A DNA stretch of 41,463 nt, taken from IMG/VR virus record IMGVR_UViG_3300031999_000069, positions 1 through 41,463 of that record, one strand, 5' to 3'. The stretch is from a virus. Positions 27,000 to 41,463 of this stretch are shown here, in pieces. A model generated the notes under the pieces. That model had not been told where the DNA came from, searched no databases, and was given only the letters and a program-made list of their open reading frames with translations. How positions within the stretch are numbered: position 1 is the stretch's first letter; every line of letters starts with the position of its first letter. The translations under genes were made by a program, and so were the position numbers.

Positions 27000-27078
27000 C
27001 CTAGGGCGAGTAGAGAACTGTTTTTACACAGGAAGCCCTAGGTATGCACTACAATAAATTTAATTAAATTCTCTACTC
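27000..27078 (-). ncRNA. Possible H-type pseudoknot before 93-aa gene
   Basis: On the transcribed strand the order is GAGTAGAGAA (27078-27069), CCTAGGGC (27042-27035), TTCTCTACTC (27017-27008), GCCCTAGG (27007-27000). The first and third pair over 10 bp and the second and fourth over 8 bp, so the stems cross. The third and fourth arms are directly adjacent, as for coaxial stacking. The first arm includes the stop codon of the upstream gene, and the last ends just ahead of the AGGAGG of the next. The 17-nt inner loop contains a CTGT/ACAG mini-hairpin. Confidence 0.6.
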
Positions 27079-27681
27079 ATCTTTAATTTCTCTCTCTATT
27101 TCTTTCAACAATAAAGCATTGGGTAATTGTTTCAAAATGTTTCCTAATATTTGTTTTGTTTCTTCTTGAGACAAATCTGGCAAAAGCAACTTTGCTTTTT
27201 CTGGAGAAATACATCCTTGCTTTATTGCTTCACAAACAACTTCCTGCCTTTTATTTTTATCTAATCCTAATGATAATTCATATTTTGCTTTTTTATTGTT
27301 TGCCCTTGCTTCAAAAATTAAATTTTTATATTTTTCCAGAAATGTAACTCTTGCTGCAATAAAATCTCCAGACAAAATAATTGGCCTTGCCGTAAAATAA
27401 GCTTCTTTCATTTCTTGTGTCCAACAAACTGAATCGTTTTCGTTTAATGGTATCATTGCCCAAGCTTCATTGGGAGAAAGATGTCCGTCATTAATTCTAT
27501 CTTTTATATCTGAAATAGTAGGAAAATGTTTTAATTCTAATCTACATCTTTTAAAAGCATCGAGTAATTGATTCTCTGAATAAACAGATAAATCAACTAG
27601 AAATAAAACAATTGCTGCTTCAGATAATTTTTTATCATAAATTTCACACATTGCTTTAATTACATTTTTTATTTTTTGCAT
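27073..27681 (-). CDS. Putative helicase-loader-like replication protein
   Basis: A 202-residue protein two genes after the replication initiator. The N-terminal half is helical, with LSVYSENQLLDAFKRCRLEL and FPTISDIKDRI, then SPNEAWAMIPLNENDS. A helical N-terminus with FPT and PNEAW motifs is familiar from phage genes beside O-like initiators, from memory, and such genes are often helicase loaders. The C-terminus includes GDFIAARVTFLEKYKNLIFE and a domain ending LLKEIEREIKDE. No ATPase motifs. Call by context and partial pattern. Confidence 0.5.
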   Translation of the reverse strand: MQKIKNVIKAMCEIYDKKLSEAAIVLFLVDLSVYSENQLLDAFKRCRLELKHFPTISDIKDRINDGHLSPNEAWAMIPLNENDSVCWTQEMKEAYFTARPIILSGDFIAARVTFLEKYKNLIFEARANNKKAKYELSLGLDKNKRQEVVCEAIKQGCISPEKAKLLLPDLSQEETKQILGNILKQLPNALLLKEIEREIKDE

Positions 27682-27880
27682 ACATTTTATTCCATTTCTC
27701 TTTTAAAATATTTTGGGTTGATTCAGAAGATTTAAAAAACAAATATGAAAAATCCTTAGTTTTAATATAATTATTCCATGTAGGTTCTATGTTTTTTCTT
27801 TCCATTTTTTCTATTTGCCAAATTATATACTCATCAAGTAAATGTGGTTTCCACAATTTTTTATCTATGCTAGTTCTCAT
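27656..27880 (-). CDS. Small hypothetical protein in replication operon
   Basis: A 74-residue protein overlapping the genes on both sides (11 and 26 bases). Sequence highlights are KLWKPHLLDEYIIWQIEKME and YIKTKDFSYLFFKSSES. AAGGAAG lies upstream of the ATG. Charged and aromatic, probably helical. Its place between initiator and loader-like genes suggests a replication accessory role, nothing more. Confidence 0.55.
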   Translation of the reverse strand: MRTSIDKKLWKPHLLDEYIIWQIEKMERKNIEPTWNNYIKTKDFSYLFFKSSESTQNILKEKWNKMYAKNKKCN

Positions 27881-28784
27881 CTTTTTCTTCCTTTATTTTT
27901 TTAAATATTTTAAAACCTCTATCTATAGAATCATTTGTGGATTGTGTTTTTTCAATTTGATACGCTCTTAAATTTGTCATTTTTTGACCTGAATTATATT
28001 CAGTAGCTAATTTTTCAGCATCTTGCAATAACAATCCAACCTTATGGCAATTTTTTACATAATTATAATTATCATGCATAACATAAAATCTTGCCACCAA
28101 TGGAGAAAGTTCTATTCCTAGTCTTTTGACAAAATTAAGCATCTGGGAGTTAACGGTAGTATTTCTAATTGGATCTACTGTATATCTAATCTTATAAGCA
28201 TCAATATAAGCATCCCAGGTTGCCTTGGTATTTATTTTTGAAATATTATTTTTTTTATCCATGTGACCTTTTAAGGTCACTGGAAGAATATTATTATTCC
28301 CTGAATTATGAATATTAGAAATAATACCATTACTTGATATATTAGTATTACTTGATATATTAATATTATCTTCTTCTTTATCTTTATCTTTATCTTCTTC
28401 TTTATCTAGAGTCGGAAATCCCGATTTATGAGATCGGAAATTTTTATCATATTTTGAATCCTTATCCTGTATTTTCAATAATTTGGGAAATTCAAATTCC
28501 CATATCAAATCATTTGTAAACAACTTTACATTGCTTTGACAAAGCATTGTGAATAACTTGTCAATGGATTGTAAACCACATTTAGAACCAATTCTCAATA
28601 TCTTTGGAAGTTCTTTTTTAGGTATTTTAAACCTATAATGCTCTGTCCCGTCCCATATCGAATGACAATATTCTATAAACATAAAATATATAGCATATCC
28701 CTTATGATCTCCAAACTCAGTCATTAATTCAACTAACAAATCAGATTTATTCGCATTATTGTAATGTTTAAACCAAGGTTTCAA
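27870..28784 (-). CDS. O-like replication initiator protein
   Basis: A 304-residue protein starting at a TTG (28784) with GAGGAAC upstream. The N-terminal 110 residues look like a winged-helix initiator domain (GDHKGYAIYFMFIEYCHSIW; SIDKLFTMLCQSNVKLFTND). A low-complexity Asp/Lys and Asn/Ser linker follows at 125-175. The C-terminal domain has TWDAYIDAYKIRYTVDPIRN, then LVARFYVMHDNYNYVKNCHK and VGLLLQDAEKLATEY, typical of phage replication proteins in Gram-negative hosts. The linker-coding DNA holds repeats, as in lambda O with its internal origin. Confidence 0.75.
   Translation of the reverse strand: MKPWFKHYNNANKSDLLVELMTEFGDHKGYAIYFMFIEYCHSIWDGTEHYRFKIPKKELPKILRIGSKCGLQSIDKLFTMLCQSNVKLFTNDLIWEFEFPKLLKIQDKDSKYDKNFRSHKSGFPTLDKEEDKDKDKEEDNINISSNTNISSNGIISNIHNSGNNNILPVTLKGHMDKKNNISKINTKATWDAYIDAYKIRYTVDPIRNTTVNSQMLNFVKRLGIELSPLVARFYVMHDNYNYVKNCHKVGLLLQDAEKLATEYNSGQKMTNLRAYQIEKTQSTNDSIDRGFKIFKKIKEEKDEN
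28263..28280. repeat. 18-bp inverted repeat in initiator gene
   Basis: GTGACCTT, two bases, then its complement AAGGTCAC. It lies inside the initiator gene near the tandem repeats and could be a protein-binding site. It also codes for VTLKGH, so chance is possible. Confidence 0.4.
28330..28365. repeat. Two tandem 18-bp repeats (iteron-like), possible origin
   Basis: Two copies of TTACTTGATATATTAGTA, differing at one base, lie end to end, followed by a TCTTTA-repeat tract to about 28407. They fall in the linker region of the O-like initiator gene. Lambdoid phages carry their origin iterons in exactly this place. Simple coding repeats (NISSNT, NISSNG) are the alternative explanation. Confidence 0.5.
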
Positions 28785-28798
28785 AAGTTCCTCACCAC

Positions 28799-28903
28799 AA
28801 AAAAGGAGGGCGCATATGTTTTGGCTGAAAGAATGCGCCCCACCTTAACCTGGTTTACTTTCGTGAAGCAACCAGAAATTTTTCGGCTTTGTAGCCAAAA
28901 CAT
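28799..28903 (-). ncRNA. Structured leader RNA with terminator and pseudoknot potential
   Basis: The predicted transcript from the promoter at 28937-28910 would start near 28903. Its first bases, ATGTTTTGGCT (28903-28893), are perfectly complementary to AGCCAAAACAT (28826-28816). The latter is the loop of an 8-bp GC-rich hairpin, GGGCGCAT (28840-28833) with ATGCGCCC (28815-28808), followed by TCC and six Ts: a good intrinsic terminator. The 5' end can also form a local GGCT/AGCC hairpin. Between them a CTGGTT/AACCAG hairpin sits at 28875-28850. The result is a likely attenuator, or a short RNA of about 105 nt. It matches no riboswitch class I know. Confidence 0.65.
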
Positions 28904-28909
28904 GAAGTC

Positions 28910-28937
28910 ATTTTATAAAAAATATATCATTTGTCAA
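28910..28937 (-). promoter_or_regulatory. Sigma70-like promoter for replication genes
   Basis: On the minus strand TTGACA (28937-28932) and TAAAAT (28915-28910) are 16 bp apart. A start about seven bases on falls at the first base of the structured leader. It lies in the largest gap of the window (28785-29054), which has no gene. Confidence 0.7.
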
Positions 28938-28974
28938 TAAATTTGTTTGATTAAACTTTTAACAATAATTATTT

Positions 28975-29003
28975 TGAGGATATAACATCTGGCTATATCC
29001 TCA
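28975..29003. terminator. Stem-loop between RusA gene and replication promoter
   Basis: A perfect 10-bp stem (TGAGGATATA with its complement), loop of nine. On the plus strand it is followed by GTTTTT, on the minus strand by AAAATAATT. It looks like a plus-strand terminator, although no plus-strand gene lies upstream. It may act in both directions at the end of the early operon. Confidence 0.5.
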
Positions 29004-29054
29004 GTTTTTAAAAAGGAGACTTTTGTATTTATTATTATACTAAACAATTTATTA

Positions 29055-29456
29055 TTAGTCAATTTTCCACACTGATATTTTAATGCATGGCAAACAATCA
29101 TCTGCATAAAATTTTCTTATTCTTGAATCTATAATTTGACCATCATCTGCAAATAATATGCCATTTAATGAATCACAAATTGATTTTAAATAATTGTCAT
29201 TGTCTGGTTTAACACATGGAAATTTTCTCTTGACACTCTTAGGCCTAGTAATAAAGCAAACGATATCAATTCCAACAGAATCTAATAAGGGCAATTGTTT
29301 AAATTTTGATCTTACTAAAAAACTTAAAGATTGTTCAAATGTTGCCGTTTTTTTAGGCGTATAGAAATATCTTTTGCCTGTTCTTTTATTTGTTCCCTGT
29401 CTGGCTCTTAATTTCGGAAATGATTCTATTATTATTGTGAAATTATAATCATTCAT
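29055..29456 (-). CDS. rusA: RusA-type Holliday junction resolvase
   Basis: A 133-residue endonuclease. The diagnostic segment is KPDNDNYLKSICDSLNGILF followed by ADDGQI and a later RIRKFYADD. The Asp residues in KPDNDN and DDGQ bind the metal in RusA. The start (ITIIIESFPKLRARQ-like region) and length fit the family. It would resolve branched DNA before packaging and is the last gene of the early recombination operon. Confidence 0.9.
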   Translation of the reverse strand: MNDYNFTIIIESFPKLRARQGTNKRTGKRYFYTPKKTATFEQSLSFLVRSKFKQLPLLDSVGIDIVCFITRPKSVKRKFPCVKPDNDNYLKSICDSLNGILFADDGQIIDSRIRKFYADDCLPCIKISVWKID

Positions 29457-31225: not shown

Positions 31226-31608
31226 TTTTCTAATTCTTTTAATATTTTTTCTCTAAACTCATTTCTTAATTTTCCAATAATCATTGGTTTTAATTCTTTG
31301 AGAACAGTACCAACCACAATTATTTTCCAATCTTTGTTTTGCATAAGTTCACCAATGAAAGGATCATATTTTTTTTCAATTAAATCAACTGACTTATCAT
31401 ATACATGATGAATTGAATGATTATACTTTTCTTTTAATTCTTTCTCTATTTCCTCTTTTAATTGATTCGCGGCATGATCTACACCTTGAGAAATTGCTTT
31501 TATTGGTTTATCTACAATTTCATCTTTTAATTCCTTGGTAGCATGTCCAATACCCTTCACAACACCTTTTGCAGCCTTTTCAACTGCTTTAAATGGATTA
31601 AATCCCAT
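31222..31608 (-). CDS. Amphipathic helical protein, unknown
   Basis: A 128-residue protein made of repeating amphipathic helices (FKAVEKAAKGVVKGIGHATK, ELKDEIVDKPIKAISQGVDH, then AANQLKEEIEKELKEKYNHS). The end has a more hydrophobic part (WKIIVVGTVLKELKPMIIGK). It overlaps its downstream neighbour by four bases. The apolipoprotein-like periodicity suggests membrane surface association or coiled coil. No family recognised. Confidence 0.55.
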   Translation of the reverse strand: MGFNPFKAVEKAAKGVVKGIGHATKELKDEIVDKPIKAISQGVDHAANQLKEEIEKELKEKYNHSIHHVYDKSVDLIEKKYDPFIGELMQNKDWKIIVVGTVLKELKPMIIGKLRNEFREKILKELEK

Positions 31609-31945
31609 TACAAACCTCCCTATAATTAAATTTATTTATAATATCATTCCTGTTTGCTCTAATTAGCCAATGATATATCTGAGGATATATTTTAATCATT
31701 TGCATTATTCCTTTATCATGAAACTCCCTGTGATGAACAATACAAAGTGGCATTAAATTATTAACTGAGTCTAATCCTCCAGCTCCTCTAGTTGTAACAT
31801 GATGAGCGGCAATGTTTTGTTTTGTATTACATAAAAGACAAGGAAGAGATTTAATAAAATTAATTATTCCCTGGTCTGAATTTATGGCAACATCTTTCAC
31901 AAAAATACCAACCATCTTCCCACACATAACAACGATTATGTCCAC
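31598..31945 (-). CDS. HNH endonuclease-like protein
   Basis: The conserved part begins around NFIKSLPCLLCNTKQNIAA, followed by HHVTTRGAGGLDSVNN and LMPLCIVHHREFHDKG. This is the zinc-binding HNH fold (C-x-x-C ... HH ... N-L-x-P-L-C-x-x-H-H-x-x-x-H) of phage DUF968-like or recombination nucleases. The true start is uncertain: the first 29 residues of this frame overlap a zinc-ribbon gene in another frame, and AGGGA lies just before the HNH core near 31860, where only ATA or ATT codons are available. It probably processes recombination intermediates or packaged DNA. Confidence 0.75.
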   Translation of the reverse strand: MDIIVVMCGKMVGIFVKDVAINSDQGIINFIKSLPCLLCNTKQNIAAHHVTTRGAGGLDSVNNLMPLCIVHHREFHDKGIMQMIKIYPQIYHWLIRANRNDIINKFNYREVCNGI

Positions 31946-34907: not shown

Positions 34908-34935
34908 TTGACAAAAATAAACTATTTGTTATCTA
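34908..34935 (+). promoter_or_regulatory. Promoter of the XRE regulator
   Basis: TTGACA (34908-34913) and TATCTA (34930-34935) with a 16-bp spacer on the plus strand. It points away from the early promoter, with 21 bp between the two -35 boxes: a classic divergent switch. Confidence 0.65.
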
Positions 34936-34991: not shown

Positions 34992-35029
34992 CCAGGGGGA
35001 ATATAAGATTCCCCCCTTGTTTCCCCTGG
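34992..35029 (+). promoter_or_regulatory. Two competing hairpins in regulator 5' leader
   Basis: Hairpin 1: GGGGGAAT (34995-35002) with ATTCCCCC (35008-35015), 5-nt loop. Hairpin 2: CCAGGGG (34992-34998) with CCCCTGG (35023-35029). The second stem covers the first two bases of the GGAGG ribosome site (35028-35032). Because the left arms overlap, only one can form: one leaves the ribosome site open and the other partly hides it. Confidence 0.55.
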
Positions 35030-35037
35030 AGGAAAAA

Positions 35038-35259
35038 ATGAAATTCTTTAAAAAGGTTATCATAAATCAGGAAAGATTAAGGGCAAACGGCTTAAGAGAA
35101 TTTAGAGAAAAACATAATATTGGATTAAGAGAATTATCCAGAGAAGCAAATATTTCTCCAGCCAATATTTCGTCAATTGAAAGAGGAAATACATATACTA
35201 AGGATAAAACTGCCATGAAATTAGAAACTGCTGTTATAAAACTGAGCGAAAACAAATAA
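35038..35259 (+). CDS. XRE-family transcriptional regulator
   Basis: The only convincing plus-strand gene, 73 residues. The start is the ATG at 35038, five bases after GGAGG; the TTG upstream lies within the leader. The helix-turn-helix spans about residues 18-60: LREFREKHNIGLRELSREAN, then ISPANISSIERGNTYTK. It is probably a small Cro/CI-like repressor. It is transcribed away from the early operon and is likely to act on the palindromic sites between them. It ends one base from the convergent gene. Confidence 0.88.
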   Translation: MKFFKKVIINQERLRANGLREFREKHNIGLRELSREANISPANISSIERGNTYTKDKTAMKLETAVIKLSENK

Positions 35260-39948: not shown

Positions 39949-41463
39949 TATTTATTCCCCGAACAAAAAATATCACAATCAGCCGAAGCCAAGTCTGAAC
40001 CGTCACTAGGTTTTGTTATATATAATGTTGCAGCAGTTGAACTAGTAGGATTTAATTGGCATCTAACATCTTTAGTGGTTCCCAAAGCATTAGCTTGACA
40101 TCTTGGTGTAGCTGAAAAAATCCCTGCAAAGGTTACAGCACAAGAACCCGAAGCCACATTTCCGATAGAAGCAACTCCAAAAATTGTTGATCCATCTTGA
40201 GAAGTTATAGCCGAACCAGAATCACAATTTAAGGTTGCTGTTAAATCATATTTCCCGCCAGAAGTAGGCGTTGCTTTATTATTTAAAATTACAGGCATGG
40301 GGAGGGATTGATTTACATTTAAAATTGTCCACTCGATAACTGTTCCGCCTGAACCTTGTATTGTTATGGCTCCTGATGCAGATTTTATCATTAATTTTAT
40401 AGTTTTAGATGTTATATCTGTGATATTATAAAATCCGCAATTAATTCTTTTTGAATAAAGGCTTACTGTATCTGAGTATAATATAGCTTCAGATATGATA
40501 TTTGCACTTCCATCGGTCATTTCTATTCCTGTATATTGGCTAGCGGTTCCTTGATTTGCTGTTGCATATGAACATATATAATAAGTTCCCGTAGTAGGTG
40601 GTGAAAATACTATTCCAGGCAATTTATCTGATCCACTTAAATAACTTGTTACGGTTCCAAAATTTTGATTTGTTCTTTCTACTAATACACAAGTTGAGTC
40701 AGCAGTAGGGTCACCGTAAGCGGTATTAGTTCTTGCCCATGAACAAGTTGAATCATGATAACCACTCCAAAAACTTGGACTAACTTTAGGACGAAAAGCA
40801 ATTTCAGAAGTCAAAGGAAAACGTTCAACTGATATTGTGAAACCCTGTACAGTAGAAATAAAATTGCATGATCCACCGCCAGAAAGTCTGTTCGACAAAG
40901 CACTAAAAGTTATATCTGATTGTGAAGTGGTATAGGTATAATAAACGATGGCCGTACCTATGTCGTGCTCAGTAACAGCAGAAGAGCTGTGAACAGTAAC
41001 AGCAGTTTTTTGTGTAGTTCCATCAGTAAAACCAAAACTACAATCGGTGGAAGTTGTAGCATATGTATTGTACATATACCCAATTAATGTGACTTTTATA
41101 ATTCCCGCTGGAATTGAAGCAAAACGTATATTTGGTAACTGTCCATCATTGCTAGCATCTGCAATTGCTTGTCCTGTGAGAGTTCTAGCATTATCATCAC
41201 AATCTGCGTCTACTGGATAAGCATTCCAGTTATTAGCACTTTTTGTCCATCCAGAGCAATTTGTCGTAGCAACCCATGATTTTGAGCCATAAACTTCAGC
41301 TTGACTTATTTGTGAAATGTTTGTTCTATTTGCATCTCCTAATATTAAATCATCGAGATATCCAATTGCTGCGTCGCCTTCTGCCTCTATTCTCGCCTTT
41401 ATTGTTCCACTTGCAGGAAAGATAAAATTAACACAAAGATCAGTCCATCCAGTAGATGAATTT
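39948..41463 (-). CDS. Partial domain-repeat protein (C-terminal 504 residues)
   Basis: The frame is open to the right edge of the window, so the N-terminus is missing. Its first visible part (NSSTGWTDLCVNFIFPASGT, then IGYLDDLILGDANRTNISQI) and the following Cys-containing domain up to ERFPLTSEIAFRP are homologous to residues about 170-400 of the left-end gene. It then has a second, different Cys-containing beta domain (FWSGYHDSTCSWARTN), and a C-terminal domain with DLTATLNCDSGSAITSQDGS, IFSATPRCQANALG and an end DCDIFCSGNK. The even spacing of Cys suggests disulfides, so the protein is probably exported, in line with the signal peptide of the left-end gene. Confidence 0.75.
   Translation of the reverse strand, partial: NSSTGWTDLCVNFIFPASGTIKARIEAEGDAAIGYLDDLILGDANRTNISQISQAEVYGSKSWVATTNCSGWTKSANNWNAYPVDADCDDNARTLTGQAIADASNDGQLPNIRFASIPAGIIKVTLIGYMYNTYATTSTDCSFGFTDGTTQKTAVTVHSSSAVTEHDIGTAIVYYTYTTSQSDITFSALSNRLSGGGSCNFISTVQGFTISVERFPLTSEIAFRPKVSPSFWSGYHDSTCSWARTNTAYGDPTADSTCVLVERTNQNFGTVTSYLSGSDKLPGIVFSPPTTGTYYICSYATANQGTASQYTGIEMTDGSANIISEAILYSDTVSLYSKRINCGFYNITDITSKTIKLMIKSASGAITIQGSGGTVIEWTILNVNQSLPMPVILNNKATPTSGGKYDLTATLNCDSGSAITSQDGSTIFGVASIGNVASGSCAVTFAGIFSATPRCQANALGTTKDVRCQLNPTSSTAATLYITKPSDGSDLASADCDIFCSGNK
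41308..41463. repeat. Right copy of 156-bp end repeat
   Basis: Matches 529-684 except at one base (41357). The window ends within this copy, as expected if an assembler stopped at a repeat. The frame is kept if position 41463 is joined to position 1. Confidence 0.95.

Follow-up and report, generated by a model that had tools for sequence, protein, structure and literature searches.

A probable terminated leader RNA upstream of a phage replication initiator operon

In the early region of the virus record IMGVR_UViG_3300031999_000069, a promoter-like site, a run of hairpins and a terminator-like structure stand directly before a gene for a putative replication initiator, raising the question of how transcription reaches that gene and what role the intervening RNA would play. 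The window analyzed here was the whole of this IMG/VR record, positions 1-41,463 (41,463 bases, 32% G+C), in which the minus strand carried nearly all long open frames. The element was located on the minus strand, inside a 270-bp gap between a RusA-type resolvase gene and the gene for a 304-residue protein, and the genes upstream of it were on the same strand. An initial annotation had described the leader with base-for-base accuracy, and each of its features was recovered in place on the minus strand. Our analysis suggested that the element is probably a terminated leader (attenuator) before the phage replication initiator operon, which would give a small RNA by default and the initiator mRNA by read-through.

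Two further features of the window were recorded. Approximately 150 bp of near-identical tail-fibre-like sequence occurred at both record ends (517-684 and 41290-41463); the fibre genes may be duplicated or the assembly broken at this point, and the record is possibly incomplete or circular. A small HNH nuclease-like protein was encoded at 31598-31945, with weak similarity to the DUF968/RecA-dependent nuclease and to the HNH part of IscB.

Promoters and downstream replication genes

The genes and predicted promoters surrounding the leader were as follows.

29055-29456: RusA-type resolvase gene, upstream edge of the 270-bp gap (PF05866 match)
29034-29062, minus strand: predicted upstream tandem promoter P1 (TTGACT, 17-nt spacer, TATAAT), at the very end of the RusA gene
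28910-28937, minus strand: predicted promoter P2 (TTGACA at 28937-28932, 16-nt spacer, TAAAAT at 28915-28910), predicted +1 at A28903
27870-28784, minus strand: lambda-O-like replication initiator gene, 304 residues, TTG start, ribosome-binding site GUGAGG at 28793-28788
27073-27681, minus strand: replication protein P or replisome-organizer-like gene, the next long gene downstream (phrog_6028, 2.5e-38)

The TTGACA-16-TAAAAT promoter that the initial annotation had proposed was present as P2, which matched 11 of the 12 consensus positions and ranked third in the window by weight matrix; P1, 125 bp upstream of P2, ranked second. Both were scored as sigma-70-type sites, a promoter type that is assumed. 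Because comparable scores arose 0-5 times in random sequence of the same composition, the support for these promoters rests on the occurrence of two of the window's top three sites within one 270-bp gap and on the right strand. No strong promoter was found between the terminator and the initiator start codon, and promoter-like sequences further down were located only inside the gene. Likewise, no strong plus-strand promoter was found over the leader, where the best plus-strand sites over or beside it ranked 101 or lower in the window.

A 10-12-bp hairpin or palindrome (TGAGGATATA...TATATCCTCA, 28975-29012) had a z score of -5.8 on the minus strand. On the plus strand it was followed by GTTTTTAAA and resembled a rightward terminator (28975-29010); to its left, neither a plus-strand gene nor a strong plus-strand promoter was found. 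This hairpin is a candidate for the end of an antisense RNA or for an operator between P1 and P2. Exactly opposite the leader, the plus strand contained a 58-codon frame (28764-28940) with no family match, inside which AAAAAAGGAGG, followed after 6 nt by ATG, opened a 10-codon frame (MFWLKECAPP).

The 304-residue protein matched no Pfam or NCBIfam model; its C-terminal half matched phrog_11527, and in tblastn searches its C-terminal domain matched a replication initiation protein (Erwinia phage Pavtok), a putative replication protein (phiC725A) and primosomal protein I. Its N-terminus could be aligned, from residue 1 on, with that of a distant relative in locus L002 (LKPWFKHYNNA / MQYFKHYHNAS), and because the two were in register, the TTG at 28784 was supported as the start. 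The product of the neighboring gene at 27073-27681 also matched proteins annotated as replisome organizer and replication protein P. Homology and gene order appear to make "replication initiator" a fair name for 27870-28784, and the initiator downstream of the leader that had been called at the outset was consistent with both the C-terminal matches to phage replication proteins and the P-like neighbor. Short direct repeats were observed at 28288-28407, in the linker region of the initiator gene; they are a candidate replication origin, which would lie inside the gene as in lambda O.

Leader RNA, terminator and 5'-end complementarity

The leader itself was resolved into the following predicted features.

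28799-28903, minus strand: predicted terminated leader RNA or small RNA, 105 nt, from +1 at A28903 to the last T at 28799
28893-28903, minus strand: RNA 5' end AUGUUUUGGCU, complement of the terminator-loop segment
28881-28900, minus strand: 5' hairpin UUUUGGCU-ACAA-AGCCGAAA (-8.5 kcal/mol, z -3.6)
28849-28876, minus strand: middle hairpin, CUGGUU/AACCAG stem (-9.4 kcal/mol, z -3.2)
28799-28841, minus strand: intrinsic terminator, GGGGCGCAU (28841-28833), 17-nt loop, AUGCGCCCU (28815-28807) and CCUUUUUU tail (-17.1 to -17.6 kcal/mol)
28816-28826, minus strand: terminator-loop segment AGCCAAAACAU, the last 11 nt of the loop, complement of the RNA 5' end

The minimum-energy fold of the 105-nt RNA consisted of three hairpins, at -36.8 kcal/mol. 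A 111-nt stretch with 6 nt more upstream (28909-28799) had the same minimum energy, with a z score of -3.7, and none of its shuffles (0/200) was as stable. The three hairpins that the initial annotation had named, a 5' hairpin of the GGCT/AGCC type, a CTGGTT/AACCAG hairpin and a GC-rich hairpin followed by six Ts, were all recovered in this fold, and each was more stable than its shuffles, the terminator hairpin with a z score of -3.6. The GC-rich terminator stem of 9 bp was lengthened by AGG/CCU, carried the 17-nt loop, was followed by six U and ended 5 nt before the initiator ribosome-binding site.

A promoter, a leader and an intrinsic terminator upstream of a gene, with no promoter in between, constitute the layout of an attenuator, and this layout was found in the sequence, in keeping with the attenuator-like position that had been noted before. 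Because the ribosome-binding site follows the terminator immediately and no promoter separates the two, the initiator mRNA would have to cross the terminator. Whatever the function of the leader RNA, this predicted obligatory passage argues most strongly for attenuation.

The sequence itself shows the promoter-like sites, the hairpins, the complementarity, the gene order and the lack of a strong promoter between the terminator and the start codon; the transcription start, termination in vivo, read-through and control of that read-through are inferred. Polymerase from P2, and from P1 further upstream, would transcribe the structured leader and by default stop at the intrinsic terminator (28799), setting free the 105-nt small RNA. 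The read-through fraction alone would reach the O-like initiator and P-like genes, with translation of the initiator beginning at its weak TTG codon. The same bases could enter either the 5' hairpin or a duplex between the first 11 nt and the terminator loop, two near-equal alternatives that would most plausibly tune read-through, either in cis, by transient pairing with polymerase on the U-tract, or in trans, by pairing of the loop of a released small RNA with the 5' end of another leader.

The complementarity between the first 11 bases of the RNA and the terminator loop, also claimed in the initial annotation, was perfect (28903-28893 with 28826-28816). When the leader was shuffled, 61 of 100,000 sequences (6e-4) had a downstream stretch of 11 nt complementary to part of the first 20 nt. 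Of 835 terminator-like sites with a long loop (3.7 Mb, mostly phage; the leader site counted twice, in the window and in its copy L001), only the leader site had an 11-nt loop match at most 130 nt upstream. In the whole window, 11-nt inverted repeats spaced 30-100 nt apart occurred at the chance level, with 2 seen and 2.5 expected in shuffled windows. By itself, the 11-nt match is modest evidence; the element is real and its arrangement is unusual, and it is unlikely, but not impossible, that this arrangement arose by chance.

These counts bear on the alternative of an ordinary terminator with a chance 11-nt inverted repeat, where the promoter would drive the operon with partial read-through and no switch. 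We considered this explanation unlikely. The chance-level number of repeats in the window agrees with it, as do the equally good promoter scores obtained from random sequence and the lack of any conservation found; however, one copy of the repeat lies exactly at the predicted start of the RNA and the other in the terminator loop, a coincidence that was rare among shuffles and unique among the 835 sites.

Just as doubtful was a stand-alone phage small RNA gene acting on other targets, with the initiator transcribed from upstream by a termination-resistant polymerase (N-, Q- or put-like); the initial annotation had offered an autonomous RNA as its own alternative. Such a gene would account for an RNA of 105 nt with its own promoter, its own terminator and a compact, stable fold, the tail CCCUCCUUUUUU could pair with ribosome-binding sites, and the genes upstream are on the same strand. 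However, no antiterminator gene was identified, and a terminator located so close to the initiator ribosome-binding site would have an attenuator effect regardless of any other role of the RNA.

Folding of the nascent RNA and further alternatives

Whether the leader could also switch was addressed by folding RNA of growing length without pseudoknots. The 5' hairpin was present from nt 23 to about nt 83. Long-range pairing was favored only for RNA ends of about 86-92 (p = 0.998 at 89-92), an interval that precedes the terminator 3' arm, and from 95-98 nt the terminator formed together with the returned 5' hairpin. The 11-bp duplex was calculated at -13.9 kcal/mol, against the -8.5 kcal/mol of the 5' hairpin; once a pseudoknot penalty is charged to the duplex, the two would be almost equal. 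In the finished RNA, the 11-bp pairing would cross the 8-9-bp terminator stem, which is the geometry of an H-type pseudoknot: on the 3' strand, the 8-9-bp stem comes directly after the 11-bp helix, and a 6-nt loop would have to span that helix. Pseudoknot stacking of about -18 kcal/mol with a penalty of 7-10 kcal/mol, our own estimate of the usual value, would come close to the energy of the 5' hairpin, so that the two states would be near balance within an error of several kcal/mol.

RNA leaves polymerase about 12-14 nt behind the active site. Because polymerase covers the last dozen bases, the long-range pairing would have little time and would compete at a point when polymerase has already reached the U-tract. 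The toehold of this pairing (AUG/CAU) was the last part to appear, and default termination of the leader therefore seems likely from the modeled folding. The 5'-end pairing need not change or abolish termination either, because it engages the loop of the terminator rather than an arm; in contrast to a classical antiterminator, it would not on its own rule out formation of the terminator.

The initial annotation had gone on to interpret the complementarity as a pseudoknot, or as a rearrangement that sets whether transcription reaches the initiator gene. The promoter, the attenuator-like position, the initiator-like gene and the absence from Rfam were all supported. The pseudoknot or switch fared less well, since folds of the finished RNA without pseudoknots favored the 5' hairpin (p = 0.999) and the partner of the 5' end is a loop; from the modeled energies, either a rearrangement or a pseudoknot is possible. 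A full self-timed switch, with the start of the RNA (11 nt) pairing with its own terminator loop and the initiator amount set by either the nascent fold or released copies (copy-number feedback), appeared to us distinctly unlikely.

The same bases can also be read as DNA. From +1 to +26 of P2 runs an imperfect 26-bp palindrome, ATGTTTTGGCTACAAAGCCGAAAAAT, and a third half-site would lie in the terminator loop; together these could bind a repressor or the initiator itself (autorepression). As DNA, the 5' hairpin belongs to this palindrome. Nine of the 11 arm positions are symmetric, the location is that of an operator, and a regulatory gene is present in the window:

35017-35259, plus strand: Cro/CI-like helix-turn-helix gene (PF01381, 2.5e-7)

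We nevertheless judged binding half-sites improbable, as no second copy was found in the window, where the best other match had two mismatches and was within chance, and as the third half-site in the terminator loop is left unexplained. The lack of a second site weakened the repressor operator in particular. The helix-turn-helix gene is divergent from the early genes and has a TTGACA upstream, near 34909; the region around it is the probable early control region.

Control by a leader peptide, where translation of a 40-codon frame through the terminator, from the possibly leaderless AUG with which the RNA begins, would block termination and be coupled to that of the initiator, was dismissed as highly improbable: the frame (28903-28781) is open, its TGA overlaps the initiator TTG start as TTGA and the loop pairing would cover its AUG, but a frame this long was open in 21% of shuffles, so that its length was not significant, and it had neither a ribosome-binding site nor a family match.

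Relatives, known systems and significance

A search of the window with all 4227 Rfam families, including riboswitches and phage RNAs, yielded 0 matches at the gathering level, and at E<=10 no match was near a gathering score, which agrees with the earlier view that the leader fits no known riboswitch class. Searches of IMG/VR with an exact 17-mer and three gapped patterns returned many matches, and in motif scans the same loop-terminator arrangement was absent among the matches listed. With blastn against GenBank phages and plasmids, just short AT-rich promoter-region matches were obtained, and no homologous leader. A covariance model built on the single leader recovered no sequence but its own in 1.05 Mb of related and 1.4 Mb of pattern loci, and its use on 767 genomes (369 Gammaproteobacteria, 398 Pseudomonadota) gave no convincing match; the one weak genome match (E 0.021) was rejected as an ordinary GC-rich terminator.

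None of 29 initiator homologues had such a leader, and in the 300 nt upstream of them a weak terminator-like site was seen in one locus only (L044). The leader was absent from initiator relatives by N-terminus (L002) and by C-terminus (L043-L070) and from terminase relatives (L030-L038). The failure to find a homologous leader, the 29 homologues without one and the lack of any sign of conservation are points against the attenuator reading. The initiator homologues share the N-terminal or the C-terminal domain, not both, with 30-47% identity over the shared part, and so are distant; the absence of leader relatives is not evidence against function.

By analogy, the terminated leader would work like the leaders of phage P4 and IsrK or like plasmid attenuators; no family match to any of these was obtained. 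The IsrK locus of the Gifsy-1 prophage encodes a small RNA with its own promoter and terminator, and read-through gives the mRNA of the next genes; the short form base-pairs with the long form of the same RNA. IsrK pairs with the orf45 region downstream, and translation of an antirepressor-like gene is under its control (PMC4825925). The present leader similarly has a predicted promoter and terminator of its own, and the gene behind it would be reached by read-through; the geometry of a short and a long form from one promoter is seen in the sequence. Unlike in IsrK, the match of the loop is to the start of the same RNA and the next gene is a replication initiator, and the searches made gave no sequence relation.

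In the phage P4 immunity leader (CI RNA, seqA, seqC), RNA-dependent premature termination controls the replication genes by means of complementary leader sequences (PMC4825925). Here, too, phage replication genes stand behind a leader with internal complementary sequences and a terminator. A separate CI RNA flanked by two complementary targets was not found in the leader, and there was no C4-type Rfam match; unlike P4, the leader has a single complementary pair, one partner of which is the terminator loop itself.

Plasmid pT181 attenuates its replication initiator by an antisense RNA from the opposite strand. In pIP501, RepR, the plasmid replication initiator, is subject to antisense RNA-driven attenuation (PMC4981023). 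The leader resembles both in that a structured leader and a terminator precede the initiator gene on its mRNA. It differs from them in the lack of a strong antisense promoter opposite the leader, although the plus-strand terminator-like site at 28975-29010 may mark the end of an antisense RNA. The HK022 put RNA, of about 70 nt, has long interacting stems, suppresses terminators and forms two hairpins at the transcript start (PMC9378689). Compared by layout from that paper alone, put and the leader are alike only in their two 5' hairpins; unlike in put, the two short hairpins of the leader directly precede a terminator.

If the leader terminates as predicted, the phage would meter its replication initiator through RNA, beyond a repressor alone, as P4 and some plasmids do. 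What would set it apart from P4 and the plasmids is the pairing of the RNA's own 5' end with its terminator loop, and the self-timed switch, if true, would be a novel design for controlling phage replication by RNA. This orphan leader is a lead and not a finding; as such, it would offer a compact case for how the folding of nascent RNA sets the start of phage replication.
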